From NCBI GenBank assembly GCA_951812585.1, contig OX638318.1, positions 1,565,058 to 1,629,057 of the forward strand: a DNA stretch of 64,000 nt, read 5' to 3'. Source of the DNA: Rhodothermales bacterium (lineage in GTDB: Bacteria > Bacteroidota > Rhodothermia > Rhodothermales > Bin80). The position numbers and the translations under genes were made by a program. This document shows, piece by piece, positions 230 to 23,379 of the stretch. The stretch's first letter is position 1. Each line of letters starts with the position of its first letter. A model generated the notes under the pieces. That model did no database searches. It saw only the letters and a program-made list of their open reading frames with translations, and was not told the DNA's origin.

Positions 230-465
230 CCGCACCAGCGTGGTGCTGTCCCGTCTGGCGCGGCGCTGGCCGCAGTCGCAGCTTGAAGCTGTGCACACCA
301 CCTGAGTTGGCGACTTCCGCTGCGCTGCCGGGTGCATTCGTCAGGGGCCTGTCGCGCGCCCACCGAAACGCTGGCAGGCGGTAGGTGCGGCGGCCACAAA
401 AAGGGGGCGCGCAGAACAAAATGTGCGGAATGCTGTTCGATCTCGGGTTAACAGTTCGCTCATCT

Positions 466-813
466 ATGCACTCGGCGCGGTACCAATCCATCGCAACGGA
501 CTTGGAATATGCGGCCGCGTCTGCACGTTCCCGGCAAGAAGTAGTACTCATCTACAAGCACAGTACATTGTGCGAGCTTTGCGCAGCGGCCAAAGATCAG
601 CTGCTCAGCCTGACAGCTGAGGGCGATCCGCCCGTGTACGAGGTAATCGTCCAGACCGCGCGCCCGCTCTCCAACATGATTGCGCGCACGCTCGGCATCA
701 GGCACGAGTCGCCCCAGGCCATCTTGCTCCAGAACGAAAAGCCGGTATTCGATACCTCCCACCGCGGCGTAACAGCGCGCGGCGTGCGGGCCGCCATCAG
801 GCGTTTGTCATGA
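466..813 (+). CDS. YtxJ-like bacillithiol-system redox protein (DUF2847)
   Basis: The 115-residue product from the ATG at 466 matches the YtxJ/DUF2847 family: a strand followed by IYKHSTLCELC at residues 29-39, then the family block IRHESPQAILL and a terminal SHRGVT motif. YtxJ proteins are thioredoxin-fold monothiol bacilliredoxins that act on bacillithiol mixed disulfides in the cytoplasm (family knowledge). No signal peptide is visible. The active site here has two cysteines, Cys36 and Cys39 (CELC), whereas known family members usually have a single Cys. The open frame extends upstream to 385, but the ATG at 466 gives the family-like length. It ends 4 bases into the next reading frame. Confidence 0.8.
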   Translation: MHSARYQSIATDLEYAAASARSRQEVVLIYKHSTLCELCAAAKDQLLSLTAEGDPPVYEVIVQTARPLSNMIARTLGIRHESPQAILLQNEKPVFDTSHRGVTARGVRAAIRRLS

Positions 814-1350
814 CGCACCCCCGATTGGTATTCTTGGGGCTCTTTGCCTGCTCCATGGCCATGCCCGTGGTGTCAGCTCAGGACGCGGGCAGAGACTGCG
901 CCAAAGAGGAACTTCACGCTGCCAGCAATGCAGGGCAACGACCTCCCGCGTTCTTCCCTGCGCCCAAACGTCGTGTTGCCGAGTTTCCGGGCACTGTGGT
1001 GCACGCCGTGCCTGGAAAAGATGCCGGATCTCAACAAGCTGCACGAAAGGCATAGCGAGGAGGACATCATTGTCGTGGGCTATTCAATTAACCGTGAAAG
1101 CAAAGGTCCTGAAGCCAAACATTTCGTGGAGGACTTGGGGATCACCTGTCCTGGGGTGTACGGCGACCCTTCGGCGATGAACGCGCCCTTGAGCATGGAA
1201 CCCGATGAACCCATTGTTCTGTCCACGACACGGCTCATCAGTCCCGAGGGGGATGTGGCGGAGGTCTATGCAGGAACAGTGTTTACGGATTGGATCCGAC
1301 GCAAATCCAGACGCATGTTGCGCCGCTATCAGCGCCGGAGTGGAGCCTAG
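810..1350 (+). pseudogene. Secreted TlpA-like thioredoxin, frameshifted
   Basis: The first part (810 to about 905) reads as a signal peptide (MTHPRLVFLGLFACSMAMPVVSAQ). The thioredoxin body continues in the +1 frame from about 910, starting NFTLPAMQGND. The active site WCTPC lies at about 994-1008 and a PEG-type strand near residue 130 of that frame. One extra base around 906-909 would explain the break. The 3' part overlaps the start of the next gene by 11 bases. Each half alone is incomplete: the second has no export signal and the first no active site. It is either a true pseudogene or an assembly/sequencing error; an intact gene would be a periplasmic thiol-disulfide oxidoreductase. Confidence 0.7.
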
Positions 1351-3169
1351 GCCCACAGGTATTGCACTGGGCATCGCGCTGCTGTTGGCTGCAGCCTTGG
1401 GGGCAGGCGGATGCCAACGTGATGCTGCGCTGTTCAGGCGACTGGACCCGGCCCGCACGGGCATCCGGTTCGCCAATATCCTTGCGCCATCGGAAACCCT
1501 CAACACATACCTGTTTCGCAACTTTTACAATGGGGGCGGCGTCGCCATCGGCGACGTCAATGGGGATACCCTGCCCGATATCTTCGTGACTGGCAACCAG
1601 GTATCCAACCGGCTGTATGTGAACAAGGGTTCCCTGCAGTTTGAAGACGCAACGGTCGCCGCAGGACTGCATTCCGAAGGCACCTGGACAACGGGCGTCA
1701 CTATGGGAGACATCAACGGGGACGGATGGCTGGACCTGTATCTGTGCAAGTCTGGACCGCTTGGCGGCGCGCGCCGCCACAATGAGCTGCTCATCAATAC
1801 GGGGCGCGGCGCTTTTGTGGACAGTGCTGCCGCCTACGGCATCGCCGTGGAAGCCCTGTCAATCCATGCCGCGCTCTTGGACTACGACCAGGATGGCGAC
1901 TTGGACCTGTATCTGCTCAGCAACCCGCTGCGGTCCCTGGACGACCTGCAGCCCGTGCCCGGCTTGCGCGAAGTCCACGATTCGGCAGGCGGCAACAAGC
2001 TCTTTCGCAACGAACTGCACCAGGGAGAACGCCGCTTTACGGATGTGACGCGGGAAGCAGGTATCTACAGCAGCCATATCGGCTTCGGACTGGGGGTCTC
2101 CGTCAGCGACCTTGATCGCGACGGATGGTCCGACCTCTATGTTTCCAACGACTTTTTTGAGCGGGACTACCTGTACATCAATCAGCGCGACGGTACCTTC
2201 CGGGAAGTGCTCCCGGAGGCCATGGGCACTATCAGTCTCAGCTCCATGGGTGGCGATATTGCGGACCTCAATGGCGACGGGTGGCCGGAGGTGTTTGTAT
2301 CCGACATGCTGCCGGCGGCCGGGCCGCGCAGGCAGTCCAAGATGAACTTTCCATCCTGGGAAGAAGATCGCGCCTACATGCAGGCGGGGTACCACAGCCA
2401 AGCTACGCGCAATACGCTGCAGCTGAACCATGGCCCGGGACCGGACGGCATTCTGGCCTTCAGCGACATTGCGCGCCTCTTGCGGATTGATGCGACGGAT
2501 TGGAGCTGGGGCGGACTTTTGGCCGACTTTGACTTGGACGGACAGCGCGACCTCTTCGTGCCGAACGGCATCTTCAAGGACCTGCTTGATCAGGACTTTA
2601 TCGCCGCCGTGCAGAACCAGGACACCCTGCGGGCCATCGTGCAGGCCGCGGACGAACCCGTCATGGCAATCCTGTCGCGCATGCCTTCGGAGCCCTTGCC
2701 CAACGTACTGTATGCGCAGCGAAGCCCGCTGACGTTTGAGAACACCAGCGACGCATGGGGCCTCGCAGATCCAGGCTTCTCCAGCGGATCGGCTTACGGC
2801 GACCTGGATGGCGACGGAGACCTGGACCTGGTGGTAAACAACGTCAACATGGAAGCCTTCGTCTACGAAAACCTTGCCGTGCAGCACAACCGCGGCCATT
2901 GGCTCCGGGTAAGCCTTTTGGGCATGCCGCCCAACACGACCGGCATCGGAGCGCAGGTCACCGCCTGGCAGGGTGGCAGGCAATGGCTGACGGAGCAGCA
3001 ACCCGCGCGCGGCTTTCTGTCCAGCGTGGACCCGGTGCTTCACCTGGGCCTGGGACCCGCAGCGGTGCTTGACTCCCTTGTCGTGCGCTGGCCGCGGGGC
3101 GGCAGGCAGATGATTAAGGATGTGGCAACGGACCAGCATATCCATCTGCGGGAGCATGACGCAAACTAG
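1340..3169 (+). CDS. FG-GAP/VCBS repeat lipoprotein with ASPIC/UnbV domain (short form)
   Basis: A GTG at 1340, preceded by GGAG, gives a 609-residue protein with a hydrophobic N-terminus ending in GAGGC (Cys25), consistent with a lipoprotein. About eight calcium-type loops follow, such as DVNGDTLPD, DINGDGWLD, DYDQDGDLD, DLDRDGWSD and DLDGDGDLD, typical of FG-GAP beta-propellers. The end (about residues 510-600) is an ASPIC/UnbV (CRTAC1-like) domain with GIGAQVTAW and LHLGLG. Related proteins are extracytoplasmic and of unknown function, often thought to bind partners or substrates. It overlaps the genes on both sides, so it is probably part of one operon. It has one propeller-ASPIC unit, while its two downstream paralogues have additional C-terminal propeller sequence. 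A longer frame back to 1205 has no export signal at its start. Confidence 0.85.
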   Translation: MEPRPTGIALGIALLLAAALGAGGCQRDAALFRRLDPARTGIRFANILAPSETLNTYLFRNFYNGGGVAIGDVNGDTLPDIFVTGNQVSNRLYVNKGSLQFEDATVAAGLHSEGTWTTGVTMGDINGDGWLDLYLCKSGPLGGARRHNELLINTGRGAFVDSAAAYGIAVEALSIHAALLDYDQDGDLDLYLLSNPLRSLDDLQPVPGLREVHDSAGGNKLFRNELHQGERRFTDVTREAGIYSSHIGFGLGVSVSDLDRDGWSDLYVSNDFFERDYLYINQRDGTFREVLPEAMGTISLSSMGGDIADLNGDGWPEVFVSDMLPAAGPRRQSKMNFPSWEEDRAYMQAGYHSQATRNTLQLNHGPGPDGILAFSDIARLLRIDATDWSWGGLLADFDLDGQRDLFVPNGIFKDLLDQDFIAAVQNQDTLRAIVQAADEPVMAILSRMPSEPLPNVLYAQRSPLTFENTSDAWGLADPGFSSGSAYGDLDGDGDLDLVVNNVNMEAFVYENLAVQHNRGHWLRVSLLGMPPNTTGIGAQVTAWQGGRQWLTEQQPARGFLSSVDPVLHLGLGPAAVLDSLVVRWPRGGRQMIKDVATDQHIHLREHDAN

Positions 3170-3743
3170 ACTGTTGGCGGCGGCACTGCTGGCAGCTACC
3201 CTCCTGGCAGGCTGTGTGCAGCAGCCGCGACAAGCGGCGGATTACGCCGCGCGTCAGGATTCGCTGTTCTTGGGCTACACGCTGGGCATGACCCGCGCCG
3301 AATTCTTCGAGCACAGCCGGGCGCTGAACCGGCAAGAGCTAGTCATTCAGGGCCCCATGAACCAGCATATCCAACGGAGACTGGACAGCGCGTTGGCCCA
3401 TGAGGCGACGATGCTGTTCTATCCCGATTTCTACGAAGACAAGATTGTGTACATGCGTGTACGCTTCAGCTACGACGCATGGGCACCTTGGAACAAGAAT
3501 CTTTATGCGGACAGTCTCTTGCCGGATGTGGTTCGACTCTTGACTCGGTGGTATGGCGAAGGCTTTGAAGAACGGACGGTCATAGGACCCTACGGCGCTC
3601 CCGTGCCCGAGTTCGAGCGGGAGGATGCCAACCGGCGCATTGTGGTCGGCGTGCTGGACGACATCGAAGTCGGAGTCCTTTTTACCGATCTTGAAGCTGT
3701 GCAGGCAGCAGCACAGGCGCCAGCACAAGATGCGGATGAGTAA
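3156..3743 (+). CDS. Small lipoprotein of unknown function
   Basis: The 195-residue product starts at an ATG overlapping the end of the previous gene by 14 bases, with GGGAGC just upstream. The N-terminus is a clear lipoprotein signal (MTQTRLLAAALLAATLLAGC, Cys20). The mature part contains LGMTRAEFFEHSRALN, an acidic/aromatic middle with YDAWAPWN, and a C-terminus rich in Ala, Gln and Asp. I do not recognise a named domain. Its 3' end overlaps the start of the next FG-GAP lipoprotein by up to 14 bases, so it is translationally coupled to both neighbours. This suggests it is a partner of the FG-GAP proteins at the same membrane (inference). Confidence 0.75.
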   Translation: MTQTRLLAAALLAATLLAGCVQQPRQAADYAARQDSLFLGYTLGMTRAEFFEHSRALNRQELVIQGPMNQHIQRRLDSALAHEATMLFYPDFYEDKIVYMRVRFSYDAWAPWNKNLYADSLLPDVVRLLTRWYGEGFEERTVIGPYGAPVPEFEREDANRRIVVGVLDDIEVGVLFTDLEAVQAAAQAPAQDADE

Positions 3744-6700
3744 GCTCATTCTGGGGGCCTTGGTGCTTTTGCCTCTGGCCTGTGGTCCCAGTGCGGATCC
3801 ACTCTTTGTGCAGCGCACGAAGAGCGGCGTGACGTTCAACAATGCGCTGGGCTATCATTATGAGTTCAACATCTACCGCTATCGCAACTTCTACAACGGC
3901 GGCGGTGTGGCGCTAGGCGATGTGGACGGCGATGGGCTGCTGGACCTTTTTCTGACAGCCAATCAGGGCAAGAACCGGCTGTATCTGAATCGCGGCGACT
4001 GGGTCTTCGACGATGTAACGGAGCGCGCTGGCGTCGCAGGCTCGCGGTCATGGTCTACGGGTGTCAGCATGGCCGACATCAACGGTGATGGCTGGCTTGA
4101 CATCTACGTATGCAACTCGGGCATTGTCCAGGGTGACGACAAGCGCAACGAGCTGTACATCAATCGCGGCGATGGCACCTTTGACGAACAGGCGGCCGCC
4201 TACAGCCTGGATGACGCGGGCCTTTCGATCCATGGATCCTTTCTTGATTACGACCGCGACGGAGACCTGGACCTGTACCTCGTGAATAATTCCTTCAGGA
4301 ACATTCAGGAATTCAACCTGGAAAAAAACACGCGGCACCTGCGCCATGCGGCAGGCGGCGATCGCCTTTACCGCAACGATGGCAGCGCGTTTACGGATGT
4401 GAGCGCCGCTGCGGGCATCTATGGCAGCGAGATCGGCTTTGGTCTCGGCGTATCGGTCGGCGATGTGAACCGCGATGGATGGCCTGACCTCTACGTGTCC
4501 AATGATTTCTTTGAAAGGGATTACCTGTACCTCAATCGTGGAGACGGCACCTTTGAGGAAGCCCTCGAGCGCAGCATCAAGAGCGTGAGTGCGGCGGCCA
4601 TGGGCGCAGATATGGCCGACCTGAACGGAGACAGCTATCCGGACATCTTCGTCACCGACATGCTGCCCAGCGATGCGCGCCGTAGCAAGACGGTAACCTC
4701 GTTCGACAGCTGGTCGCGGTACCAGGACTATATTCGCAACGATTACTACCACCAGTTTACGCGCAACACGCTGCACATGAACCTGGGCGGCGGTCCGCGT
4801 AATACGGTGCACTTCGCAGAAGTCGGACGCTTTGCCCGTGTAGAAGCAAGTGACTGGAGCTGGGGCGCGCTGATCGCAGACTTTGACCATGATGGCCATC
4901 GCGATGTGTTCGTGGCCAACGGCGTCTATCAGGATCTGACCAATGCGGACTTCCTCGTGGAAGTGAGCAAGAAAGAAACGATTGAAACGCTCGTAGACCG
5001 CGACTCGGTGGATTGGCCCGCCCTGATAGCAATGATGCCGTCCAACCCGGTTCCCAACCACGCTTTTGCAGGCAATGGTGCGATGCGGTTTCGCGACGTG
5101 GCCGCAGACTGGGGCCTGGATGCGCCCGGCTTCTCCAACGGCAGCGCCTACGGGGACCTGGATAATGATGGCGATCTCGATCTGGTCATCAACAACGTCA
5201 ACCAGCAGGTCAGCCTGTACGAAAATCGCGCGACGCGCCTGTATCCGCGCCGCACCTGGCTGCAAATAGCTTTAAGGGGCGCGCCGCCGAATACTTTCGG
5301 CGTAGGAGCACAGATCACAGCCTGGCACCAGGATCGCGTATGGCATGCGGATCAGCAACCCGTGCGGGGCTACCAGTCCAGCGTGGATCCCGTGGTGCAC
5401 CTGGGGCTCGGTCCTGGGGTGGCTGTGCTGGATTCTCTTATTGTGGACTGGCCCAGTGGGCGCGCCACCCGCCTGTCCGCAGTCACGACCGGGCGCCGAC
5501 TCGTGGTCGAAGAGGATGCACCCCAAGTGAAGAGCACCACGCCGGCACACGCTGAACGCTGGATGACGCCGGTAGACCCTCAGGCCATGGGCCTTGACTG
5601 GCAGCACCAGGAGAACGTGCACAACGACTTTGCACAGCAGCCGCTGCTCTTCCACATGCGCTCGACAGAAGGACCGGCCGTCTGCACGGGCGATGCCGAC
5701 GGAGATGGCAATGCGGACCTCTACCTGGGCGGCGCGCGGGGCCAGCCTGGCACCGTCTGGCAGCAGCACAGGCCGGGCCTGTTCAGCGCTTTGGCGCAGC
5801 CTTTCCTGGTGCAGGACAGCACCGCAGAAGACACGGATTGCGTATGGCTGGACGTAGATGCCGACGGCGACCAGGACTTGTATGTGGCCAGCGGGAGCAG
5901 CGAGCTTCCCGCCAGCAGTTCGGCCTTGGTGGACCGCCTTTATGTCAATGATGGTGCGGGCCTATTGCACCACCACGGAGATTTTCAACCGCCCGGCCGC
6001 AGTGGATTCGAGCCTACGGGTGCGGTTGCCGCGGCTGATGCAGACGGGGACCGTGACTTGGACCTCTTTGTCGGAGCGCGCCTTAAGCCGTTTGCCTACG
6101 GAGTTCCCGTAGACGGACACCTGCTGCTTAATGATGGCACCGGTGCATTCACAGAAGCAACCGATACGCATGCGCCAGCACTACGCGGCCTCGGCATGAT
6201 CACCGGCGCGGTCTGGGGCGATTTGGATGGCGATGGCGATGCAGACCTTGCCGTTGTCGGCGAATGGATGCCCGTGACCGTGCTCTACAATGATGCCGGC
6301 ACGCTATCGCGTCGCACGAGCGGCTTGGAGGCTACGCATGGATGGTGGCAGTCAGTCCATATGGCAGATCTGGATCACGACGGCGATCTGGACCTCGTCG
6401 CGGGCAATCACGGACTCAACAGCCGATTCAGGGCAGCGCCGGGCGCGCCGCTTGAGATCTGGACCAGCGACTTTGACCGCAACGGGCGCGTGGAGCAGAT
6501 TCTTGCCATGAGTACGGAGGGCATCGCCTATCCCATGGCGTTGCGCCATGACCTTGTGGCGCAGATTCCTTCGCTGGTTGCTCTGTATCCTACGTATGCC
6601 TCGTTTGCGGGCGCTTCAGTCCAGGACATCTTCACCGCGCAGCAGCTGGAAGTAGCGGCCCATCTGCAGGTGTTTGAGCTGCGCAGCCTCGTGCTGATCA

Positions 6701-7035
6701 ACGATGGCCGGGGCGTATTCGAACCCGTGCCGCTGCCGATGGCGGCGCAGCTGTCGCCGATCTATGCATCGCTGTCGCTGGACATAAGTGGGGATGGATT
6801 ACCGGAAGTGCTCATGGGCGGCAACCTTTATGAGGCCAAACCCGAGGTTGGCCGCTACGACGCAAGCTACGGCACAGTCTTGGACAAGACCGGACAGGCG
6901 ATGTCGTGGATGCAATCCGGGTTCTGGGTTGATGGTGCTGTGCGGGCCATTTTTCCACTGCGGGCGGGGGACAAAGACTTGGTCGTTGTAGCGCTCAACA
7001 ACGACTCGCTGCGGGTCTTTTCCTATGAGCACTGA
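3730..7035 (+). CDS. FG-GAP/VCBS repeat lipoprotein with ASPIC/UnbV domain (long form A)
   Basis: The start is the ATG at 3730 (or the in-frame ATG at 3736), giving about 1,101 residues. The N-terminus MRMSKLILGALVLLPLAC is a lipoprotein signal with Cys18. Residues 40-520 form the same FG-GAP propeller as the upstream paralogue (DVDGDGLLD, DINGDGWLD, DYDRDGDLD, DVNRDGWPD, DLDNDGDLD). An ASPIC/UnbV block follows at about 525-600 (VGAQITAW, VHLGLG). The remaining 480 residues are a second set of FG-GAP repeats (DADGDGNAD, DVDADGDQD, DLDGDGDAD, DLDHDGDLD). It is probably an outer-membrane or periplasmic surface protein; ligand unknown. It overlaps the next gene by 11 bases. Confidence 0.87.
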   Translation: MRMSKLILGALVLLPLACGPSADPLFVQRTKSGVTFNNALGYHYEFNIYRYRNFYNGGGVALGDVDGDGLLDLFLTANQGKNRLYLNRGDWVFDDVTERAGVAGSRSWSTGVSMADINGDGWLDIYVCNSGIVQGDDKRNELYINRGDGTFDEQAAAYSLDDAGLSIHGSFLDYDRDGDLDLYLVNNSFRNIQEFNLEKNTRHLRHAAGGDRLYRNDGSAFTDVSAAAGIYGSEIGFGLGVSVGDVNRDGWPDLYVSNDFFERDYLYLNRGDGTFEEALERSIKSVSAAAMGADMADLNGDSYPDIFVTDMLPSDARRSKTVTSFDSWSRYQDYIRNDYYHQFTRNTLHMNLGGGPRNTVHFAEVGRFARVEASDWSWGALIADFDHDGHRDVFVANGVYQDLTNADFLVEVSKKETIETLVDRDSVDWPALIAMMPSNPVPNHAFAGNGAMRFRDVAADWGLDAPGFSNGSAYGDLDNDGDLDLVINNVNQQVSLYENRATRLYPRRTWLQIALRGAPPNTFGVGAQITAWHQDRVWHADQQPVRGYQSSVDPVVHLGLGPGVAVLDSLIVDWPSGRATRLSAVTTGRRLVVEEDAPQVKSTTPAHAERWMTPVDPQAMGLDWQHQENVHNDFAQQPLLFHMRSTEGPAVCTGDADGDGNADLYLGGARGQPGTVWQQHRPGLFSALAQPFLVQDSTAEDTDCVWLDVDADGDQDLYVASGSSELPASSSALVDRLYVNDGAGLLHHHGDFQPPGRSGFEPTGAVAAADADGDRDLDLFVGARLKPFAYGVPVDGHLLLNDGTGAFTEATDTHAPALRGLGMITGAVWGDLDGDGDADLAVVGEWMPVTVLYNDAGTLSRRTSGLEATHGWWQSVHMADLDHDGDLDLVAGNHGLNSRFRAAPGAPLEIWTSDFDRNGRVEQILAMSTEGIAYPMALRHDLVAQIPSLVALYPTYASFAGASVQDIFTAQQLEVAAHLQVFELRSLVLINDGRGVFEPVPLPMAAQLSPIYASLSLDISGDGLPEVLMGGNLYEAKPEVGRYDASYGTVLDKTGQAMSWMQSGFWVDGAVRAIFPLRAGDKDLVVVALNNDSLRVFSYEH

Positions 7036-10000
7036 CGATACCGGCGCCCGAGCCGACACGTTTCCGTGCGCGGGCGTATCGCAGCCCAAGTTCCTGCCCG
7101 CCTGCGAAGAAATGCGCGGTGACGCCCATGCTGCCGCAACTGTTGCGCAGCGCGCAGGCAGGGGGCGATGGCTGCTCTCTGTACCACTGCTATTGGTAGT
7201 ACTCCTTGCGGGGTGCGGGCAGGCCGATGAGGCCACGCTCTTTACGTCCATAGAAGCGCGTGAGAGCGGCGTGGACTTTGAGAACACCGTCGCCTTCCAA
7301 GAGGATTTTAACATCATCGAATACCTCTACTTCTACGATGGCGGCGGCGTGGCGCTTGGCGATATCAACCGCGATGGTCTGCAGGACATATTCCTGACGG
7401 GCAACCAGGTGTCCAATCGGCTCTTTGTCAATCAGGGCAGTCTGCGATTTGAGGATCGGACGATCGGCGCCGGCCTTGCCAGCAGCGGATGGTCAACGGG
7501 TGCGACCATGGCTGATGTCAACGGCGACGGGTGGCTAGACATTTACGTATGCCAAGTAAGCTACAAGAGCCAGTCTGGGCGTAACCTGTTGTATATCAAC
7601 CGCCGCGACGGCACCTTTGCCGAGTCGGCGCAGGCCTACGGCATAGCCTTTGAGGGGCTATCGACGCAGGCCGCATTCTTCGACTATGATCGGGATGGTG
7701 ATCTAGACCTGTACCTGCTGAATCATGCGGTGCATTCCAGCGAATCCTTTGTCCCAGCCTGGCGGCGCACCGTGGATGCACCGCGCGTAGGCGACCTGCT
7801 CTTCCGCAATGACGGGGGTACGCACTTCACAAACGTCACGGCTGATGCCGGCATCTACAGCAGTGCGCTGGGCTATGGGCTAGGCCTCGCGGTCAGCGAC
7901 CTCAATGACGATGGATGGCTGGACATTTACGTAGGCAACGATTTTCACGAGAATGACTACCTGTACCTGAACCAGCGCGACGGCACCTTCGAAGAGGTCT
8001 TGCAACGGGTGATCGGTCACACCAGCCAGTCGACTATGGGAGTGGACATTGCAGACTTCAACAACGACGCTTGGCCGGATGTGGTGGCGCTGGATATGAT
8101 GCCGGCGGACTGGGGCACGTATCTTGCCTCTGGCGGGCCGGACGAAGCAGGCGTAGCGCGCATCAAGCGCAACCATGGATATGCACCGCAGGTGTCGCGC
8201 AACACCCTGCAGTTGCATCGCGGACTGGATGCTGAAGGGTACCCGCTATTCTTTGAGATCGGCGCTTTCCTTGGGATTCACGCAACGGACTGGAGCTGGA
8301 CCCCGCTTTTGGCTGACCTGGACGGTGACGGCTGGAAAGATCTGTTCGTCACCAACGGCATCGGGGCGCGCCCAAATGATCTGGACTATGTCGATTACGT
8401 GGCGCAGCCTGCGGTGCAGCGCATCCTGGATAGCGGTCACCCGAGCGAAGTTGAGCGCGTGACGCGGCACATGCCCCAGGTCGCCATCGGCAACTATGCA
8501 TTCAGGAACCGCAAGGGCCAAGCTTTCGATGACGCAACCGATGCTTGGGGGCTGGACGCACCCAGCGTATCCAACGGAGCATCCTACGGCGACCTGGATA
8601 ACGACGGCGACCTGGACCTGGTAGTGAACAACATCAACCAGGCTGCATCGCTCTATCGCAACAACAGCGACAGCCCGCGTTTCCTGAGGGTTTCGCTCGA
8701 GGGCGCAGGCCTGAACACAACCGCCGTAGGGGCGCGCGTAACGGTCTTTGCGGAAGGCGCTGCACAGACGCAGGAGCAGATGCCGACGCGCGGGTTTCAG
8801 TCGTCGGTTCCGCATGTGCTGACCTTCGGGTTGGGGCAGTCCCTGCTCATTGATTCCGTCGCGGTGCGCTGGCCGGGTGGAACCGCGGAGACGTTTTACG
8901 GGATCGCCCCCAACCATCATATAGTGCTGCAACAGCGCGCTGAGGCGAAACCCTGGGTGCCTGAGCGGGCGCAGAGCACCGCGCTGCTGGCCGAACTGCC
9001 GGGTGCCCTTTCCTGGATGCACCAGGAAAATGATTACGAAGACTTTGACTATGAGCCGCTCATCCCGCACCGGCTGTCCACGCAGGGGCCGGCCTTGGCC
9101 GCAGCCGATGTGGATGGTGACGGCCAGGACGATGTCTTCTTGGGCGGAGCACATGGCCAGCCCGCCCTGTTGCTGCTTGGCGGCATGCACCCGTTGGCTC
9201 AGTCGGACTTTGACGCGGATGGCGAAGATGTGGATGCGGCCTTCTTTGACGCGGATGGCGACCGTGATGCCGACCTCTATGTGGTGCGCGGCGGCAGCGA
9301 GCAAGACACCCGATTGTGGCAGGATGTACTCTATATCAATGATGGCCAAGGCAACTTCGTGCAGAGCAATGGTTTGCCCCCCTTCCTGGCCAACGGGTGC
9401 TGCGTAAGCGCAACGGACTACGACCTTGATGGCGATACCGACCTCTTCGTGGGTACCCGTTCGGTGCCCGGAGACTACGGTGCGCGGCCATCGAGCTTTC
9501 TCCTCAGCAACCGTGGTGATGGTCGCTTTACCGATGTCACCACGGACGCCGCGCCTGCGCTCCTGGATGCAGGCATGATCACAGGCAGCGCATGGGCTGA
9601 TGTGACCGGAGACCCGGCGTTAGATCTTGTGCTGGTCGGTGAATGGCTGCCCGTAACGGTGCTGGAGAATCGTGGCGGCGTGCTGGTTGAGACAACCCGC
9701 GCGCTAGGGCTTGACGAGACCGGGGGATGGTGGCAGAGCGTGCTGACGGGCGACTTTGACGGCGATGGCGATACCGATATCGTTGCGGGCAATCTGGGTC
9801 TCAACAGCGTGTTGAATGCGCCGATAGACCTTTACGTAGACGATTTTGATAGCGATGGCAGCAGCGATCCGCTGATCGTGCTGGGGGCTACCGCGCAGTT
9901 CTGGGCCAGACGCGACGCACTTCTGGATCACTTGCCGGCGCTGTCGGCACGCCTCCCGTCCTACGCACGGTATGCTTCCGCGCGCGCACACGAGGTGGTC

Positions 10001-10396
10001 AATCTAACCGCTGCCTCTCATTACCGCGTACATACGTTTGCCTCGCTGTACCTGGAGAATGACGCGACATTCAGCGCGCGCTCGCTGCCCGACGCGCTGC
10101 AGTGGGCTCCAGTAATGGACATGATCAGCCGCGATTTTGATGGTGACGGGACGCTGGACATACTGGCCGTAGGCAATTTCTTCGGCGCGAGCACGGCGCA
10201 AGGCCCGTATGATGCGAGCCACGGTACCCTGCTGCTAGGTGCTGGCAACGGTCAATTTGTTGTTCAGCACACCGGGCTTGGCATTCGCGGCGATGCGCGC
10301 CGCGTGCGCATGGTTCATACGTCTGCCCATGGGAATGCAGTCGTTGTAGCGCATTCAGGCGGCCGCCCCCAGGTTTTTCAATTACGCCCGAAGTAA
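7025..10396 (+). CDS. FG-GAP/VCBS repeat lipoprotein with ASPIC/UnbV domain (long form B)
   Basis: The ATG at 7025 overlaps the previous stop by 11 bases and gives 1,123 residues. An internal ATG at 7112 would put the lipoprotein signal (LLSVPLLLVVLLAGC) nearer the start and may be the true one. The layout matches the preceding gene: an N-terminal FG-GAP propeller (DINRDGLQD, DVNGDGWLD, DYDRDGDLD, DLNDDGWLD, DLDNDGDLD), a central ASPIC/UnbV region (VGARVTVF, LTFGLG), then a second propeller (DVDGDGQDD, DADGDRDAD, DYDLDGDTD, DFDGDGDTD, DFDGDGTLD). It is a diverged tandem duplicate. A gap of about 370 bp follows, so this is probably the last gene of the operon. Confidence 0.85.
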   Translation: MSTDDTGARADTFPCAGVSQPKFLPACEEMRGDAHAAATVAQRAGRGRWLLSVPLLLVVLLAGCGQADEATLFTSIEARESGVDFENTVAFQEDFNIIEYLYFYDGGGVALGDINRDGLQDIFLTGNQVSNRLFVNQGSLRFEDRTIGAGLASSGWSTGATMADVNGDGWLDIYVCQVSYKSQSGRNLLYINRRDGTFAESAQAYGIAFEGLSTQAAFFDYDRDGDLDLYLLNHAVHSSESFVPAWRRTVDAPRVGDLLFRNDGGTHFTNVTADAGIYSSALGYGLGLAVSDLNDDGWLDIYVGNDFHENDYLYLNQRDGTFEEVLQRVIGHTSQSTMGVDIADFNNDAWPDVVALDMMPADWGTYLASGGPDEAGVARIKRNHGYAPQVSRNTLQLHRGLDAEGYPLFFEIGAFLGIHATDWSWTPLLADLDGDGWKDLFVTNGIGARPNDLDYVDYVAQPAVQRILDSGHPSEVERVTRHMPQVAIGNYAFRNRKGQAFDDATDAWGLDAPSVSNGASYGDLDNDGDLDLVVNNINQAASLYRNNSDSPRFLRVSLEGAGLNTTAVGARVTVFAEGAAQTQEQMPTRGFQSSVPHVLTFGLGQSLLIDSVAVRWPGGTAETFYGIAPNHHIVLQQRAEAKPWVPERAQSTALLAELPGALSWMHQENDYEDFDYEPLIPHRLSTQGPALAAADVDGDGQDDVFLGGAHGQPALLLLGGMHPLAQSDFDADGEDVDAAFFDADGDRDADLYVVRGGSEQDTRLWQDVLYINDGQGNFVQSNGLPPFLANGCCVSATDYDLDGDTDLFVGTRSVPGDYGARPSSFLLSNRGDGRFTDVTTDAAPALLDAGMITGSAWADVTGDPALDLVLVGEWLPVTVLENRGGVLVETTRALGLDETGGWWQSVLTGDFDGDGDTDIVAGNLGLNSVLNAPIDLYVDDFDSDGSSDPLIVLGATAQFWARRDALLDHLPALSARLPSYARYASARAHEVVNLTAASHYRVHTFASLYLENDATFSARSLPDALQWAPVMDMISRDFDGDGTLDILAVGNFFGASTAQGPYDASHGTLLLGAGNGQFVVQHTGLGIRGDARRVRMVHTSAHGNAVVVAHSGGRPQVFQLRPK

Positions 10397-10764
10397 GCCT
10401 GTTACGCATAAGAACGTCTTGACAACGGGCCTGTGCACGGCATCGGACCCGCGTAACGACGCCTCTTGCCTGGGCGCTATTGCGGCGATGGAAGCGTAAT
10501 GCTCTGGTGTGTATAGCCCGCTGTTTCCGCCTGCCGCCCGCTCACTGCCGCGAAGCCTGAGTCCGGGTCAATCAGCACAAGGCGCACCTGCTGCAGGCGC
10601 ATACGCACCCGACGCAGCTGAACCCTTGTGCTGGCGCGGAACGAAGTGCCTCTACGCAAGCAGGGAGCACGCAAAAATGCAGAATGCACTGCCCGTTTCC
10701 ACTCGGGCCGCTGGAGCCTTATTTGTGCTATATTCATTTGAATTACCACTCTAATTCGGTCGCC
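10397..10764. other. Intergenic region before the symporter
   Basis: There is no convincing gene in these 368 bases. A short open frame over most of it has no recognisable product. An AT-rich patch at 10718-10754 lies just upstream of the symporter start and probably holds its promoter. I could not find a clean TAnnTTTG box; the nearest is TTCATTTG at 10733-10740, one base off consensus. Confidence 0.4.
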
Positions 10765-12573
10765 ATGCAGCTTGTCACACTGGACTGGATCGTTGTCGGT
10801 ATCTACGGCGCGATCACGGTGGTTTTGGGCCTTTGGTTCACGCGCCGGGCTGGCGGGAGCGTAGAGGACTTCTTCGTGGCTGGGCGCACGCTGCCCTGGT
10901 GGATTGCCGGCACGTCCATTGCGGCGACTTGGTTTGCTACAGATGCACCGCTTGTGGTTTCGTCTCTGGTGCGGCAGGAAGGCATCTTCGGCAACTGGCT
11001 GTGGTGGTATGAAGCCGCCGGTGTCATGATGCTGGTGTTCTTTTATGCCCGCCTCTGGCGGCGGGCCAGGATCATTACCGACGCAGAGTTCATTGAGCTG
11101 CGCTATGCCGGTCGCCCGGCGGCCCTCTTGCGCGGATTTTCCGCGGTGTACCAGGGCGTGCTGAAGAACTGCGTCGTGATGGGCTGGGTGATGCTTGCCA
11201 TGGTGAAGTTCAGCCAGGTCCTTCTGGGATGGGATCCGATATTCACGCTGCTGGTGTGCGGTGTGCTCGCCGTGGTGTACACGGTCGCCTCGGGCCTTTG
11301 GGGCGTCGTCGCCACGGACCTGCTGCAGTTCACCACGGGCCTGATCGGCACCATGATCCTAGCGGGCATCGTGCTCTACCAGTTTGGAGGCCCGGCCGAG
11401 ATGGCGCGCGGCGTGCAGGACTTTCATGCCAACCAGGCCACGCTCGACATCTTCCCGAACCCGGCGCATCTGAGCTCGCTGGAGGTCGTCTCGTTCTTCC
11501 TGCTCATCTTTGTGCTGTGGACGCGCAGCGGTCAAGGGGACGGCTACATCGCGCAGCGGCTCTTCGCCACCCGCAATGAAAGGCAGTCGCTCCTGGCTGC
11601 GCTCTGGTTCTGCTTTGCCGGCATCGTTCTGATGACATGGCCGTGGATCATTGTGGGCCTGGGCTCGGTGCTGGTGTTCCCCGTGGCGACCGCTGCGCCG
11701 GAATTGGCGGCGGATCCGGAGCTGGCGTACCCCATGATGATCGGCGAAATGATGCCGGCGGGCCTTCGCGGCCTGCTGGTGGCATCCTTCCTGGCCGCCT
11801 TCATGAGCACGATGGATACGCACCTGTGCTGGGGGGCCTCATACCTTGTGAACGATGTCTATCGCCGCTTCATGCGCAAGGACAAGCCCGAGCGACACTA
11901 TGTGGTCGCATCTCGGGTGGGCGTCTTGATCCTTGTGACGCTAGCCATCATCACCGCCTGGCAGATGGAATCCATTGAACGGGGTTGGATCTATGTCATC
12001 GAGATCACGGCTGGGATCGCCATCGTGTGGCTGCTCCGATGGTACTGGTGGCGCGTCAACGCTTGGGCGGAAATCAGCGCGATCGTAGGGTCCTTTATGG
12101 TGGCCAACGGCTTCATCTGGGCCAAGCTGCTGGCCGGCATCGGACTGCTTTCGGGAAATGCGCTGACGGCCGTACAAACGTTTTATGGCAGCGAGTGGGA
12201 TATCGTACGCGCGGTGTGCATCCTCGTCGTCTGTACCATCGTGTGGATCGTGGTCGCTCTGTGCACCAAGCCTGACTCCGAAGAGAAGCTGATCGCCTTC
12301 TATCGCCGGGTGCGACCGGGCGGCTGGTGGGGACCCATTGCCGCAAAATGCCCTGATGTGGCAACAGGGCCCTCTGCTGCACGCAAGTGGATGGCGTTTG
12401 GACTCGGCATTCTGTTCATATGGACCAGTCTCTTGGGCGTCGGGTACGTGATGACGGGTCGTACGCCCGCCGGTATCGCACTCCTGGTTTTCGCTACCAT
12501 CGCGGCCGCAGCCACGATCGCTGTGGCGCTGAAGCTGCTTGCTCCTCCTACGCCCTCATCAGAATCGAACTAA
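10765..12573 (+). CDS. Sodium:solute symporter (SSS family)
   Basis: The ATG at 10765 gives 602 residues with about 13 hydrophobic segments. It starts directly with the first membrane helix (LDWIVVGIYGAITVVLGLWF), followed by RRAGGSVEDFFVAGRTLPWW, the conserved first loop of sodium:solute symporters. The transporter would import a small solute using the sodium gradient at the inner membrane. The substrate cannot be read from sequence. Its stop overlaps the start of the PIG-L deacetylase by one base (TAATG), so the two are translationally coupled and may handle the same sugar or glycoconjugate (inference). Confidence 0.9.
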   Translation: MQLVTLDWIVVGIYGAITVVLGLWFTRRAGGSVEDFFVAGRTLPWWIAGTSIAATWFATDAPLVVSSLVRQEGIFGNWLWWYEAAGVMMLVFFYARLWRRARIITDAEFIELRYAGRPAALLRGFSAVYQGVLKNCVVMGWVMLAMVKFSQVLLGWDPIFTLLVCGVLAVVYTVASGLWGVVATDLLQFTTGLIGTMILAGIVLYQFGGPAEMARGVQDFHANQATLDIFPNPAHLSSLEVVSFFLLIFVLWTRSGQGDGYIAQRLFATRNERQSLLAALWFCFAGIVLMTWPWIIVGLGSVLVFPVATAAPELAADPELAYPMMIGEMMPAGLRGLLVASFLAAFMSTMDTHLCWGASYLVNDVYRRFMRKDKPERHYVVASRVGVLILVTLAIITAWQMESIERGWIYVIEITAGIAIVWLLRWYWWRVNAWAEISAIVGSFMVANGFIWAKLLAGIGLLSGNALTAVQTFYGSEWDIVRAVCILVVCTIVWIVVALCTKPDSEEKLIAFYRRVRPGGWWGPIAAKCPDVATGPSAARKWMAFGLGILFIWTSLLGVGYVMTGRTPAGIALLVFATIAAAATIAVALKLLAPPTPSSESN

Positions 12574-15236
12574 TGCGTTACCTGTTTGTCCTGCTCCTTA
12601 TCGTATCCTCGGCAGCAGCCCAGGACGCTCCCAGAGACCTCGTGCTGACCAGCACGCTGGACACGGAGGGCGGGTCCATGCTGGATGTGGACAAGGGAGC
12701 CACCGGTCTCCTGCAGCGGTTGCTGAAGCTGCAGACCACCGCCAGCGTCCTGCACACCACTGCGCACCCTGACGACGAGCACGCAGGCCTGTTGACCTAC
12801 CTCAGTCGCGGCAAGGGCGTAAGAACAGCGCTTTTGACGCTGAACCGGGGCGAGGCAGGTGCCAATGCCATCGGGCCAGAACTCTTCGACGCGCTAGGGC
12901 TGATCAGAACCGAGGAGCTGCGCCTTTCGGACCGGTACTACAGCCTGGACGACCAGTACTATTCAGGTGCGCTGGACTACGGCTACTCCAAGACGCTGGA
13001 GGAGTCCATGCGCAGCTGGGATCGTGAGCTGGTGCTTAGCGAGATGGTGCGCGTGATCCGCCTCAACCGCCCGCTAGTGGTGATTTCCCGGTTCCATGGG
13101 TCTGAGCGCGACGGGCATGGCAACCATCAGGCAGTGGGCGGACTCACGCCGGAGGCCGTGGCTGCTGCGGGGGACCCTTCGCGGTTTCCGAACCATATCG
13201 CGAAAGAGGGCCTGCGGCCCTGGGTTACGCCCAAGCTCTACCGCGGCGGCGTACGGGAGGGAGAATGGTGGCATGTACAGGTAGATGTAGGCGCCCACAG
13301 TCCTTGGCTGGGCGATACGTACCAAAACTTTGGCTCCTATGGGCTAAGCCTGCAGCGGTCCCAGACCAGCGGCCGATCCCGCGCGCGCCTAGGTCCGGTG
13401 CCCTACTACTACGAACGCATTGATACCGCTACTGAGGAGAAAGAGACGTCCTTCTTCGATGGTCTGGATACATCGTTATCCGGCGTGTTTTCTATTACGG
13501 GTGAGGAAGTACCGGAGGGTGCTGTTGAGGCGCTTGGTGAAGCACAAGAGCATGTGCAGAGCGCTATAGACAACCTTGATGCGTTTCGCCCAAGCGCCAT
13601 CACGCCGCACCTGGCCGCGGGCTTGGCCAATGTGCGCAGCGTCCTGGCCATGTTGCCTGCGCGCAGTGACGCCGCGTTCATGCTGCGCATCAAGGAGCAG
13701 CAGTACATGCATGCGATCACGGCTGCTTTGGGCCTCTCGTGCACCGCGATGGGTGTGCCGGACGGCACGGTGGAGTCCGGCAGCCCTTGGAGCGCGCCGG
13801 CCACCATGGGTCCCGTCGTGCGCGGCCAGTCCTTCCGGGTTGATGTCCAGTGCGTGAACCCATCGGGGGAGCATGTGTCGGATCTCAGTATCAGCCTTGA
13901 TGACCCCAGTGGCGCGTCCATGGAGGCTTGGCACGCCACGGCCCACCCGGTCCAATCCGATCCCTTCTACCGGGCCAGCTTTGACGTAGCGGTGCCGGCG
14001 GATGCCCCGTACGCGATGCCGTACTACTTCCGCAACTCCGTCCGCGAAAACCACTACCAGTTCAGAGACTACGCCTGGCAGCATCTGCCCAGCCGTCCTG
14101 CAGCACTGGAGGCCGTCGTCACATTCCAGGTGCAGCAAGAAAGTGTCACTGCGCGTGTTCAGGTGCAAACGCGCGAAGCCAACCTGCCCAATGGCTATGT
14201 AAAACGGAAGCTGCAGGTTGTGCCTGTCTTGGCGGTGAGCACCTCTCCGCGGCAGCGCGTCATCGTCCCAAAGCCGGGCGGCAACACGTTTGACGTCTCG
14301 GTCGAAGTGATAAGCAACTATTCGGGCAATATCTCCGGCACGCTTCGGCTCGTGCTGCCGGACGGCTGGTCGAGTACGCCCGCGCAGCGCGAGATCAGCT
14401 ACACACAAGCGGGCCAGCGCGCGGGGTACACCTTCTCCGTAAGCGTGCCAGGTTTGGGATCGCAGCAGCAAACCATCAGTGCCGTTGCTTCGGCAATGGG
14501 CGCGGACTACGCAGTGGGGTATGACATCATTCGACACGCCCACATGGAGACCCGCTACCTCTATCGCCCGGCCGAGGTCCTGGTAAATGGTCTTGAAGTG
14601 GCCATCGCGCCGAACCTTAAGGTCGGCTACGTGATGGGTGTGGGAGACGATGTACCCAGCGGCATCCAGCAGCTCGGAGCAGCAGTCAGCCTGCTTACAT
14701 CGGAAGATCTCGCCAGTGCCGAGCTGTCGGCCTTCGACGCTATTGTGATCGGCACGCGGGCCTACGCCGTGCGACAAGATTTGCACACCTACAACCGTCG
14801 CCTCTTGGATTACGCCTACGGTGGCGGCAACCTTATCGTGCTGTACCAGACGCAGGAGTACGTACCGAATGACATGGCTCCGCATCCGGCGATGCTGCCG
14901 CGGGGAGCGGAGGAGGTTTCCGAGGAGGACGCGCCGGTGGCCATCCTGGCACCCGAAGCACCGGTGTTTCAGGGCCCCAACCGCATAACGGAAGCCGACT
15001 TCGACGGCTGGATCGAGCAGCGCGGATCGAAGTTTTTCACTGAATGGGACGCCGCGTACACGCCGCTGATCGAAACGCACGACACCGGCCAGGCCCCGCA
15101 AATGGGCGCATTCCTTACCAGCACCTATGGCGAAGGGCACTTCACGTATGCAGCGCTGGCCTTCCACCGGCAATTGCCCTACGGCGTCGCTGGCGCCTAC
15201 CGGCTCTTTGCCAACCTGTTGTCTATGGGCAACTGA
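12573..15236 (+). CDS. Secreted PIG-L family deacetylase, multidomain
   Basis: The product is 887 residues with an N-terminal signal peptide (MRYLFVLLLIVSSAAAQ). Residues 58-260 are a PIG-L/LmbE domain: AHPDDE at 64-69 carries the first two zinc ligands and the catalytic Asp, and GHGNHQA supplies the third ligand. The family removes acetyl groups from N-acetylglucosamine-containing compounds. The middle has an immunoglobulin-like NEW3-type domain, and the C-terminus resembles a class-I glutamine-amidotransferase/ThuA-like fold (VIGTRAYAV, GGGNLIVLYQ). It should act outside the cytoplasm. It is coupled to the upstream sodium symporter, which could import the released product. Being exported, it is unlikely to be the cytoplasmic bacillithiol enzyme BshB. 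Confidence 0.87.
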   Translation: MRYLFVLLLIVSSAAAQDAPRDLVLTSTLDTEGGSMLDVDKGATGLLQRLLKLQTTASVLHTTAHPDDEHAGLLTYLSRGKGVRTALLTLNRGEAGANAIGPELFDALGLIRTEELRLSDRYYSLDDQYYSGALDYGYSKTLEESMRSWDRELVLSEMVRVIRLNRPLVVISRFHGSERDGHGNHQAVGGLTPEAVAAAGDPSRFPNHIAKEGLRPWVTPKLYRGGVREGEWWHVQVDVGAHSPWLGDTYQNFGSYGLSLQRSQTSGRSRARLGPVPYYYERIDTATEEKETSFFDGLDTSLSGVFSITGEEVPEGAVEALGEAQEHVQSAIDNLDAFRPSAITPHLAAGLANVRSVLAMLPARSDAAFMLRIKEQQYMHAITAALGLSCTAMGVPDGTVESGSPWSAPATMGPVVRGQSFRVDVQCVNPSGEHVSDLSISLDDPSGASMEAWHATAHPVQSDPFYRASFDVAVPADAPYAMPYYFRNSVRENHYQFRDYAWQHLPSRPAALEAVVTFQVQQESVTARVQVQTREANLPNGYVKRKLQVVPVLAVSTSPRQRVIVPKPGGNTFDVSVEVISNYSGNISGTLRLVLPDGWSSTPAQREISYTQAGQRAGYTFSVSVPGLGSQQQTISAVASAMGADYAVGYDIIRHAHMETRYLYRPAEVLVNGLEVAIAPNLKVGYVMGVGDDVPSGIQQLGAAVSLLTSEDLASAELSAFDAIVIGTRAYAVRQDLHTYNRRLLDYAYGGGNLIVLYQTQEYVPNDMAPHPAMLPRGAEEVSEEDAPVAILAPEAPVFQGPNRITEADFDGWIEQRGSKFFTEWDAAYTPLIETHDTGQAPQMGAFLTSTYGEGHFTYAALAFHRQLPYGVAGAYRLFANLLSMGN

Positions 15237-18122: not shown

Positions 18123-18503
18123 TTCCGATCTGTAGAATCTGGTGAATAGGCAGCGCGTCATTCGGCTACGACGCACCTTTAAGGTAAGCCGTGCAATCCA
18201 AAAATGGTACTCAGGTGGGTGCTAAACTGGAACAATTGCACCGCCGAAGGCGCGTGGTGCAAACGGCCAGTGTGGCCCCGTGCTCCTACCATGCGGCGCG
18301 TAGCCGGGACGCACTCCGGTTTGCGTATACTTACGCAGGTCGGATGTCGTGCGAAGGGGCTTGCCAAGGAGCGCCCGCGAAGGCTGCTGGGTTTATAAAT
18401 ATGTCGTATGTCGTATCGGGAATCTTCACCGCGCATGCGCATGCGCATGCGCAAAAAGCAATCCGCGCGCCGAAGCCGCTTCTTTGAACGAGAGCGTTAA
18501 GGG
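18123..18503. other. Divergent intergenic region
   Basis: These 381 bases separate the minus-strand TonB receptor from the plus-strand channel and should hold both promoters. No gene is supported here. Visible structure includes an AT-rich block (TTTATAAATATG) at about 18391-18402 and a short tandem repeat at 18431-18452, listed separately. No exact TAnnTTTG box was found on either strand. Confidence 0.4.
18431..18452. repeat. GCGCAT hexamer repeat, alternating purine-pyrimidine
   Basis: The hexamer GCGCAT occurs three times in a row and ends in a partial GCGC. The tract is strictly alternating purine-pyrimidine and self-complementary over its length, about 50 bases upstream of the channel start. 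Such tracts can form Z-DNA or cruciforms; a regulatory role is only a guess. Confidence 0.8.
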
Positions 18504-19349: not shown

Positions 19350-19432
19350 CGCAGTTGCGCCGCAGCGCACATCCGTCAGGAAGCATGCCGCTTGCTGCGG
19401 CAGTACCATCGCCCCGGGTGCGAGGAGTCCAA

Positions 19433-21985: not shown

Positions 21986-22007
21986 ATCTCATTCAGCGGT
22001 TTGGCCC

Positions 22008-22015
22008 TAACTTTG
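22008..22015 (+). promoter_or_regulatory. Candidate -7 promoter box for the GH4 gene
   Basis: TAACTTTG matches the Bacteroidota -7 consensus TAnnTTTG exactly and lies 32 bases before the GH4 start. No clear TTG element is found 17-23 bases further upstream, so support is partial. Confidence 0.35.
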
Positions 22016-22047
22016 ACTTGACTTGCATCAGCCACCTTGCGTTGCTC

Positions 22048-23379
22048 ATGAAGATCGTTCTTGTAGGTGCCGGCAGCAAGGAGTTTGGACCTGCGACCAT
22101 TCGCGATGTCTTGCTGAGCGATGCCATAAACGCGCACAAAGTAGAAATCGTGCTCATGGACACCAGCAGTGCGCAGCTGCCTGCTATGCGCACGTACGCT
22201 GTTCATGTTGCGGAGAAGCTCGGGCGCAGGCCGAGGGTGACGTGCACGACGCGGATTGGCGAGGCTGTTCAAGGCGCGGATTTTGTGATCACCGCGATTG
22301 AGCTTCGTCGCTACTACCACTGGGCACAGGACTTTCATGTGCCGCGGCAATACGGGTTCAGGCAGATCTACGGTGAAAATGGCGGGCCGGGCGGGTTGTT
22401 CCACGCCCTGCGCAATATGGGGCCTACGCTGGAGATCGCCCGCGCGATGGAGCACCACTGCCCTGAGGCTTGGCTGCTGAACTACACCAACCCGCTTACG
22501 AAGCTGTGCCAGGCGCTGACGACGCTTTCACCGGTTCGCACGGTTGGTCTTTGCCATGGCGTCTTTGCAGGCAAACAGCAGCTGAGCCGAATCCTGGGCA
22601 TGCCGATCAGCGACATCGAGGCGTATGCGAGCGGGTTGAACCACTGCACATGGTTTCAGTCCATCACGCATAGCACAACCGGTGAGGACCTCTATCCGCG
22701 CCTTGTTGCGAGAGAGCGCGAAGCGGATCCACTGGGCGAGTGGGACGAGATTGCGCTCAGCCGCATTCTGTTGCGCACCTTCGGATTGTATCCGTCCCCC
22801 GGCACCAATCACATTGGCGAATATCTGGGCTGGTCCCAGGAATTTTTGGGCAGCAGTCTCATGCAGTTCTACTACGACCCTGTAGAAGGCCATCCGTGGG
22901 AAACCGGCGCAGTCCCGACATGGATCTATAACCTGCACGAGCATGCCACTGATCGCCCGCTTTTTGGCCATGCAACGCCGACCAGGGAGGCTGCACTCGA
23001 ACCATCGGGTGAGCTGGCAATCCCCATCATTGAAGGCCTGCGCTGCGGCGCGCCGCACGCGTTGGATGCTGTGAACATACCCAACGCCGGGATGGTGCCT
23101 GGATTGCCTGCGGGAACAGTCGTGGAGGTGCCCGCTGCGGTGGATGAAAACGGCCTGCATCCGCGAACCATGCCACGCCTTCCTGAAGGTGTGCTCGCCA
23201 TCCTAAGGACACAGGCCAGCATTAATCAGCTTCTCGTGGAAGCGTTCGCCGAGCAGTCGCGCAACAAGCTCCTGCAGGCCGTCCTCCTGGACCCGTCTGC
23301 GCAGTCTTACCGCCAGGCAGCTTCGCTGGTCAAGGCGCTCTGCGCCCTCCAGGCCGATGTCTTGCCGCCGCTGCACTAG
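22048..23379 (+). CDS. Glycoside hydrolase family 4 (alpha-galactosidase/alpha-glucosidase type)
   Basis: The 443-residue product is a GH4 enzyme, which uses NAD and a divalent metal in a redox-elimination mechanism on glycosides. The N-terminal Rossmann motif is VGAGSKEFG (6-14). NYTNP at 145-149 and LCHG at 168-171 are family signatures, with Cys169 a likely metal ligand and NHC at 198-200 contributing the metal-binding His. There is no signal peptide, so it acts in the cytoplasm on imported sugars. The ATG at 22048 fits the family start; an upstream extension of the frame overlaps the divergent gene and is unlikely. It lies 180 bases before susC and may belong to the same uptake locus. Exact substrate is unclear. 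Confidence 0.9.
   Translation: MKIVLVGAGSKEFGPATIRDVLLSDAINAHKVEIVLMDTSSAQLPAMRTYAVHVAEKLGRRPRVTCTTRIGEAVQGADFVITAIELRRYYHWAQDFHVPRQYGFRQIYGENGGPGGLFHALRNMGPTLEIARAMEHHCPEAWLLNYTNPLTKLCQALTTLSPVRTVGLCHGVFAGKQQLSRILGMPISDIEAYASGLNHCTWFQSITHSTTGEDLYPRLVAREREADPLGEWDEIALSRILLRTFGLYPSPGTNHIGEYLGWSQEFLGSSLMQFYYDPVEGHPWETGAVPTWIYNLHEHATDRPLFGHATPTREAALEPSGELAIPIIEGLRCGAPHALDAVNIPNAGMVPGLPAGTVVEVPAAVDENGLHPRTMPRLPEGVLAILRTQASINQLLVEAFAEQSRNKLLQAVLLDPSAQSYRQAASLVKALCALQADVLPPLH

Follow-up and report, generated by a model that had tools for sequence, protein, structure and literature searches.

Overlapping lipoprotein genes

A 64,000-nucleotide (nt) stretch of contig OX638318.1 from a Rhodothermales bacterium (GCA_951812585.1; hereafter, the window) includes a cassette of four overlapping genes. 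Three of them encode lipoproteins with FG-GAP propellers and an ASPIC/UnbV domain, designated FG1, FG2 and FG3, and the other encodes a small lipoprotein, designated LIP.

1340..3169, + strand: FG1 (type A), lipoprotein with one FG-GAP propeller and ASPIC/UnbV; GTG start; Pfam FG-GAP_3 and UnbV_ASPIC
3156..3743, + strand: LIP, small lipoprotein of 195 amino acids (aa); lipobox LAGC; conserved YDxWAPWN motif
3736..7035, + strand: FG2 (type B), lipoprotein with the order propeller 1, ASPIC, propeller 2; from Pfam and an AlphaFold2 (AF2) model
7025..10396, + strand: FG3 (type C), lipoprotein with the order propeller 1, ASPIC, propeller 2; from Pfam, type C in trees

The positions of the four genes in the original prediction were confirmed, with overlaps of 14 nt (FG1/LIP), 8 nt (LIP/FG2) and 11 nt (FG2/FG3). 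An alternative ATG is present at 3730 for FG2. A further in-frame ATG, at 7112, would give FG3 a shorter signal peptide; if this is the start, FG2 and FG3 do not overlap. Lipoprotein-type signal sequences were recognized by eye on all four proteins, while an automatic scan for lipoboxes recognized those of FG1 and FG3 and missed FG2.

Domains and fold of the FG proteins

The Pfam matches of the three FG proteins are all far above the cut-offs, both for FG-GAP_3 (PF13517; E-values 1.8e-41 for FG1, 6.4e-77 for FG2 and 1.1e-65 for FG3) and for UnbV_ASPIC (PF07593; 2.3e-19, 7.6e-15 and 9.1e-21, respectively). A second FG-GAP region follows ASPIC in FG2 and FG3 and is not found in FG1, which bears out the predicted set of one single-propeller protein and two proteins with an extra C-terminal propeller. 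The three are paralogues of one another, as had been proposed; over the common part, FG2 is 50% and FG3 48% identical to FG1. The strict calcium-blade motif Dx[DN]xDG occurs 6 times in FG1, 11 times in FG2 and 12 times in FG3, against 0.1-0.3 in shuffled sequences, and FG1 has 7 such motifs when the loose form is included.

The AF2 model of FG2 (predicted local distance difference test score, pLDDT, 90.7; predicted template modelling score 0.91) shows two propellers with ASPIC between them. The top match of this model in a fold search of PDB was murine CRTAC1 (9etn, E-value 2.3e-27). Murine CRTAC1 was also matched by sequence (E-value 2.9e-25), and the relatives of the FG proteins in PDB, by sequence and by fold, are CRTAC1 and integrin alpha. 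Long near-invariant stretches, such as SNDFFERDYLY and DWSWGALI, are found in the FG proteins. No enzyme family was matched in the Pfam search of FG1, FG2 and FG3.

FG-GAP genes are common in the genome of the window, with 12 ASPIC matches. One other triplet of overlapping ASPIC/FG-GAP genes, each of about 600 aa, is present in the same genome (L031:7536-12754; G000:C1 about 552.5-557.8 kb); it is only distantly related to the FG genes of the cassette, and adjoins a weak PorP/SprF match.

Conservation of the gene order

The order FG1-LIP-FG2-FG3 is kept in 14 of the 14 other genomes of the same family that carry LIP. In this count, LIP of G010 was read by eye, having been missed by the open reading frame (ORF) picker, and FG3 was not seen there; G002 ends at a contig edge. 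Most often, the genes are arranged as SusC-SusD-FG(A)-LIP-FG(B)-FG(C), where the letters refer to the FG types. Each of the three junctions FG(A)-LIP, LIP-FG(B) and FG(B)-FG(C) has a median gap of -4 nt, and the median between SusC and SusD is 19 nt. The four genes are thus one conserved unit, as suspected from their overlaps, and the unit recurs across phyla; the FG types retain both order and orthology in other genomes.

FG(A) is absent upstream in five loci (L096, L100, L088, L089 and L102), and LIP is still located before FG(B). A pairing of LIP with FG(B) is hinted at, because LIP precedes FG(B) even in these loci. The mirror-tree partial correlation over 15 loci singled out no partner of LIP, every LIP-partner 95% range including zero, while the same analysis recovered SusC-SusD and, slightly more weakly, SusC-FG(B).

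Linkage to SusC and SusD

The partners of the cassette in the genome of the window were located by searching it with SusC and SusD from L086, a locus of the same family in which all genes form a single run, GH4-SusC-SusD-PIG-L-FG1-LIP-FG2-FG3 (GH4, glycoside hydrolase family 4).

23560..26565, + strand: SusC, TonB-dependent transporter; Pfam; 76% identical to SusC of L086; orthologous to the SusC next to FG1 in relatives
26628..28262, + strand: SusD lipoprotein; Pfam SusD_RagB E-value 3.4e-28; 76% identical to SusD of L086; exact start uncertain; orthologous to the SusD next to FG1 in relatives

Outside the family of the window, SusD is directly upstream of the FG/LIP genes in 29 of the 31 loci whose flanks are long enough, and SusC in turn precedes SusD in all of these except one, where the contig ends. 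In L102, the SusC/SusD pair converges on the FG/LIP genes. Within the family, SusC/SusD are directly upstream in L071, L073, L076 and L086, and are found in the same region in G006 and in the window. The unit in the genome of the window is split, not absent. The four genes hold as one conserved set, but not as a free-standing one; the set belongs to a SusC/SusD locus, the SusC/SusD orthologues of which are located 13 kb downstream in the same window. That the set works as one surface complex, as originally proposed, is an inference.

The sequences indicate that SusC/SusD and the cassette are co-inherited, because the LIP-linked SusC proteins of Chitinophaga or Saprospiraceae reach about 770 bits in comparison with the SusC of the family, as opposed to 115 bits for the next-best SusC in the genome of the window in a search with the same-family SusC. 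As the unit can split within a genome, annotation of the cassette alone overlooks the transporter.

The same genome has two other SusC/SusD pairs with FG-GAP/ASPIC genes after them and no LIP (L033 and L034; G000:C1 2.453-2.473 Mb and 2.693-2.713 Mb).

LIP family

LIP matched no family above the cut-off in profile searches of Pfam and NCBIfam, and no PDB sequence in a profile search. Its AF2 model (pLDDT 83) is a helix-sheet protein. A fold search of PDB with this model gave no match with an E-value below 0.001; the best match (E-value 8.7e-3, root-mean-square deviation above 15 Å) is chance-like. Among 32 sequences, Y106, W109, A110, W112 and R160 are invariant, and the conserved core includes YDxWAPWN. 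By these comparisons, LIP represents a small protein family that is absent from Pfam and has a strongly conserved motif.

Among 59 related genomes, LIP was found in that of the window and in 14 of 15 others sampled from the same family, and in none from the other families of the order. With a LIP profile, 27 of 395 genomes from the wider group were found to carry the protein. GTDB contigs, when scanned, yielded 52 LIP loci, including those of Algoriphagus, Chitinophaga, Saprospiraceae, Lutibacter, Rhodohalobacter and Rhodothermales; the phyla with LIP are Rhodothermota, Balneolota and Bacteroidota. No LIP was found in viral contigs. LIP had been viewed as an orphan inserted between gene copies; it instead belongs to a conserved family of wide distribution that keeps this position in three phyla. 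FG genes are found with LIP in 51 of the 52 loci, and LIP is thus almost never found away from them. Neither of the two outcomes named beforehand as speaking against the original proposal, LIP being widespread without FG neighbors or the three FG genes being unrelated elsewhere, was observed.

In Algoriphagus antarcticus (L104:10001-11797), a second LIP copy follows its own SusC/SusD, and is followed by a decayed FG-GAP gene.

History of the FG paralogues

A tree of the first propeller and ASPIC region of the FG proteins revealed three old types, A, B and C, which match the gene position, and type C split from A plus B with strong support. Judging from this tree, the FG duplications are ancient and not recent. 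FG1 may be a copy of FG2 confined to Rhodothermota, as a quick tree placed it near type B (FG2); the approximately unbiased test, however, did not reject a single A clade (p 0.56, the tree held to this clade being slightly better). The short FG1 is particular to the bacterial family of the window, because the first FG protein has two propellers as well in most phyla.

FG2-like genes (E-value below 1e-285) were found in 44 of 395 genomes, 19 of which have no LIP. Of the loci without LIP that were retrieved, four (L127, L129, L132 and L133) have the order SusC-SusD-FG-FG; the others were incomplete or had another arrangement. SusC-SusD-FG-FG loci occur in other Rhodothermota families and some Bacteroidota, and share with the cassette loci the succession of SusC/SusD and FG-GAP/ASPIC genes. 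Unlike the cassette loci, they have a single A/B-type and a single C-type FG gene and no LIP. The A/B-side gene branches before the A/B group, and the other gene is on the C side. This arrangement suggests that LIP joined an older SusCD-FG-FG locus along with the A/B duplication. The gene distribution also indicates that LIP depends on the FG genes and not the reverse, because nearly all LIP loci have FG genes, yet SusC-SusD-FG-FG occurs without LIP.

Proposed uptake machine and alternatives

It is probable that the four genes specify a shell of surface lipoproteins on a SusC/SusD uptake system of the outer membrane, in which the FG propellers would bind or present the ligand and LIP would be an accessory adaptor. 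In such a machine, the TonB-driven channel would be SusC, with SusD as the lid. The FG-GAP/ASPIC propellers with their calcium blades, predicted to be exposed on the cell surface, would form a complex beside or over SusC, where they would capture a ligand, probably a sugar-containing one, and hand it over to SusD/SusC. LIP may assemble with the propeller proteins, most plausibly with type B, which is encoded right after it, and may position, anchor or stabilize the propellers.

Several observations weigh against this interpretation. SusC/SusD are separated from the cassette by 13 kb with opposite-strand genes between in the window, and by about 53 kb in G005; co-transcription is therefore not needed in this lineage. 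G001, an incomplete metagenome-assembled genome (MAG) of the same genus, has SusC/SusD and no LIP. One LIP gene, in a Saprospiraceae MAG (L118, 1687-2328), is located beside secA with no FG genes, the sole such locus of the 52. The FG proteins or LIP may instead be oriented toward the periplasm, because they have about one acidic residue at positions +2 to +6 compared with two in SusD, a weak enrichment with no clear consensus. Finally, no single substrate is indicated, because the neighboring enzymes vary between phyla.

The role of LIP has one alternative that is possible, although rather unlikely: LIP may be a folding, export or anchoring factor, a dedicated chaperone-like lipoprotein for the propellers, and not a standing part of the complex. 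The one-sided dependence of LIP on FG genes, the very strong conservation at the invariant residues in a small protein, the position directly before FG(B), and the copy beside secA are consistent with such a factor. Against it, the FG proteins manage without LIP in SusC-SusD-FG-FG loci, and the fold search gave no structural tie to a known chaperone.

It is doubtful that the FG-GAP/ASPIC proteins are themselves enzymes, such as lyases or hydrolases, acting on the ligand at the cell surface ahead of its import. Their near-invariant stretches would fit this function, and rhamnogalacturonan lyase is a calcium-blade propeller (PMC3123361), but the closest solved relatives of the FG proteins are not enzymes, none of the Pfam matches is to an enzyme family, and separate candidate enzymes adjoin the cluster.

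Still less likely are propellers that serve as adhesins or matrix proteins of the integrin or CRTAC1 kind, with SusCD as a separate, merely neighboring function. This explanation draws on the PDB relatives found by sequence and fold, but the likeness to integrin reflects a common propeller type and not a common role. Besides integrins, calcium blades are known from rhamnogalacturonan lyase, from PilY1 and from a fungal lectin that binds monosaccharides, the last being a precedent for the uptake reading (PMC3123361). Moreover, in several phyla SusC/SusD adjoin the cassette at almost all loci that could be tested, and they have co-diverged with it. A tandem duplication of the ordinary kind, with a small gene lying between the copies by chance, which the abundance of FG-GAP genes in this genome might suggest, is ruled out by the conserved gene order, both in the family and in the near-constant company of FG and LIP.

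FG-GAP/ASPIC proteins are common in environmental Bacteroidota, and gain a concrete, testable role as transporter-associated lipoproteins, because the SusC-SusD-FG-LIP-FG-FG order is fixed across Rhodothermota, Balneolota and Bacteroidota. Cultured carriers exist, namely Algoriphagus species, Chitinophaga japonensis and Rhodohalobacter sulfatireducens.

Neighboring genes and possible substrates

The following genes flank the cassette or SusC/SusD in the window.

421..813, + strand: YtxJ/BrxC bacilliredoxin-like protein; TIGR04019 E-value 1.3e-24, above the cut-off; flanking gene
844..1350, + strand: TlpA/ResA-like thioredoxin-fold ORF; Pfam AhpC-TSA E-value 1.9e-10; directly upstream of FG1
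10684..12573, + strand: SSF-family sodium:solute symporter; Pfam SSF E-value 2.8e-41; true start may be near 10765
12573..15236, + strand: exported PIG-L-family deacetylase with an NPCBM-associated domain; Pfam PIG-L E-value 1.8e-12; signal peptide MRYLFVLLLIVSSAAAQD
21808..23379, + strand: GH4; Pfam GH4 E-value 3.9e-39, GH4C E-value 4.3e-35

The thioredoxin-like ORF shares 11 nt with FG1, and the overlapping run thus comprises five ORFs. In the region 810-1350, the catalytic domain is in the frame of 844 and the signal peptide in the frame of 810. From the sequence, the ORF looks like a frameshifted, decaying duplicate, and an intact TlpA-like gene is located just upstream of it (L030:14721-15287). 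It is probably a flanking gene outside the machine. The bacilliredoxin-like gene precedes FG1 in the relative G005 (L067) too.

Between the cassette and SusC/SusD, the window contains the SSF symporter, the exported PIG-L protein, a TonB-dependent receptor, an ion channel and a PD40 protein, the last three within 15405-21985, where the PD40 gene is of the propeller kind. The SSF symporter directly follows FG3 in L067 and L077 as well. PIG-L genes are also found in the locus in L067, L077, L086, L071 and L102. GH4 is directly upstream of SusC in L086, L123, L125 and L126, and a PD40 gene is also located beside the GH4-SusC-SusD half in the last three of these.

The neighbors vary with lineage. 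Rhodothermota loci have PIG-L, SSF and GH4, some Chitinophagaceae loci have GMC oxidoreductase and 3-keto-disaccharide hydrolase, and GH32 was seen once. A PAP2/haloperoxidase-like lipoprotein is encoded near loci in Algoriphagus and Saprospiraceae. At many loci, no carbohydrate-active enzyme, or only the PAP2 lipoprotein, was seen. The neighboring enzymes point to sugars or glycoconjugates in general, and not to one substrate.

A PAP2/vanadium-haloperoxidase-like gene follows the FG-GAP genes in L081, L083, L085, L103, L105-L107, L109-L111, L113, L114 and L117, and likewise in L130, L132 and L133. It occurs with and without LIP, and its product in L106 is a lipoprotein by eye.

Comparison with known systems

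In the literature, searched mostly outside subscription journals, no relevant paper linking UnbV or FG-GAP to SusD was found, no description of this gene set was found, and no role had been assigned to the FG-GAP/ASPIC proteins of environmental Bacteroidota. The CRTAC1 family, represented by murine CRTAC1, shares the FG-GAP propeller and ASPIC/UnbV with the FG proteins. Unlike CRTAC1, the FG proteins are bacterial lipoproteins linked to a transporter, and FG2 and FG3 have a second propeller after ASPIC.

The BtuB-BtuG vitamin B12 complex likewise has a propeller lipoprotein on a TonB-dependent transporter, as well as small accessory lipoproteins (BtuH) (PMC10404256). BtuG is the lid in that complex, whereas SusD is present as the lid here, and the FG-GAP/ASPIC propellers are defined by their calcium-blade sequence.

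In the levan and dextran utilisomes of Bacteroides thetaiotaomicron, the extra lipoproteins of the locus dock on SusC (PMC7618045). The present loci resemble these utilisomes, which consist of SusCD, a surface glycan-binding protein and a glycoside hydrolase, in the SusC/SusD core, in the additional lipoproteins of the locus and in the proposed logic of capture followed by import. The difference is in the extra lipoproteins, which here would be FG-GAP/ASPIC propellers and LIP instead of an immunoglobulin-type surface glycan-binding protein and a surface glycoside hydrolase. Tentatively, and with somewhat less than even likelihood, SusC-SusD-FG(A)-LIP-FG(B)-FG(C) may represent a distinct, undescribed class of outer-membrane uptake machine in three phyla, in which calcium-bladed double-propeller lipoproteins and a small lipoprotein with a new fold take the place of the customary glycan-binding protein and hydrolase of the surface, and the class of ligand would not be a conventional polysaccharide.

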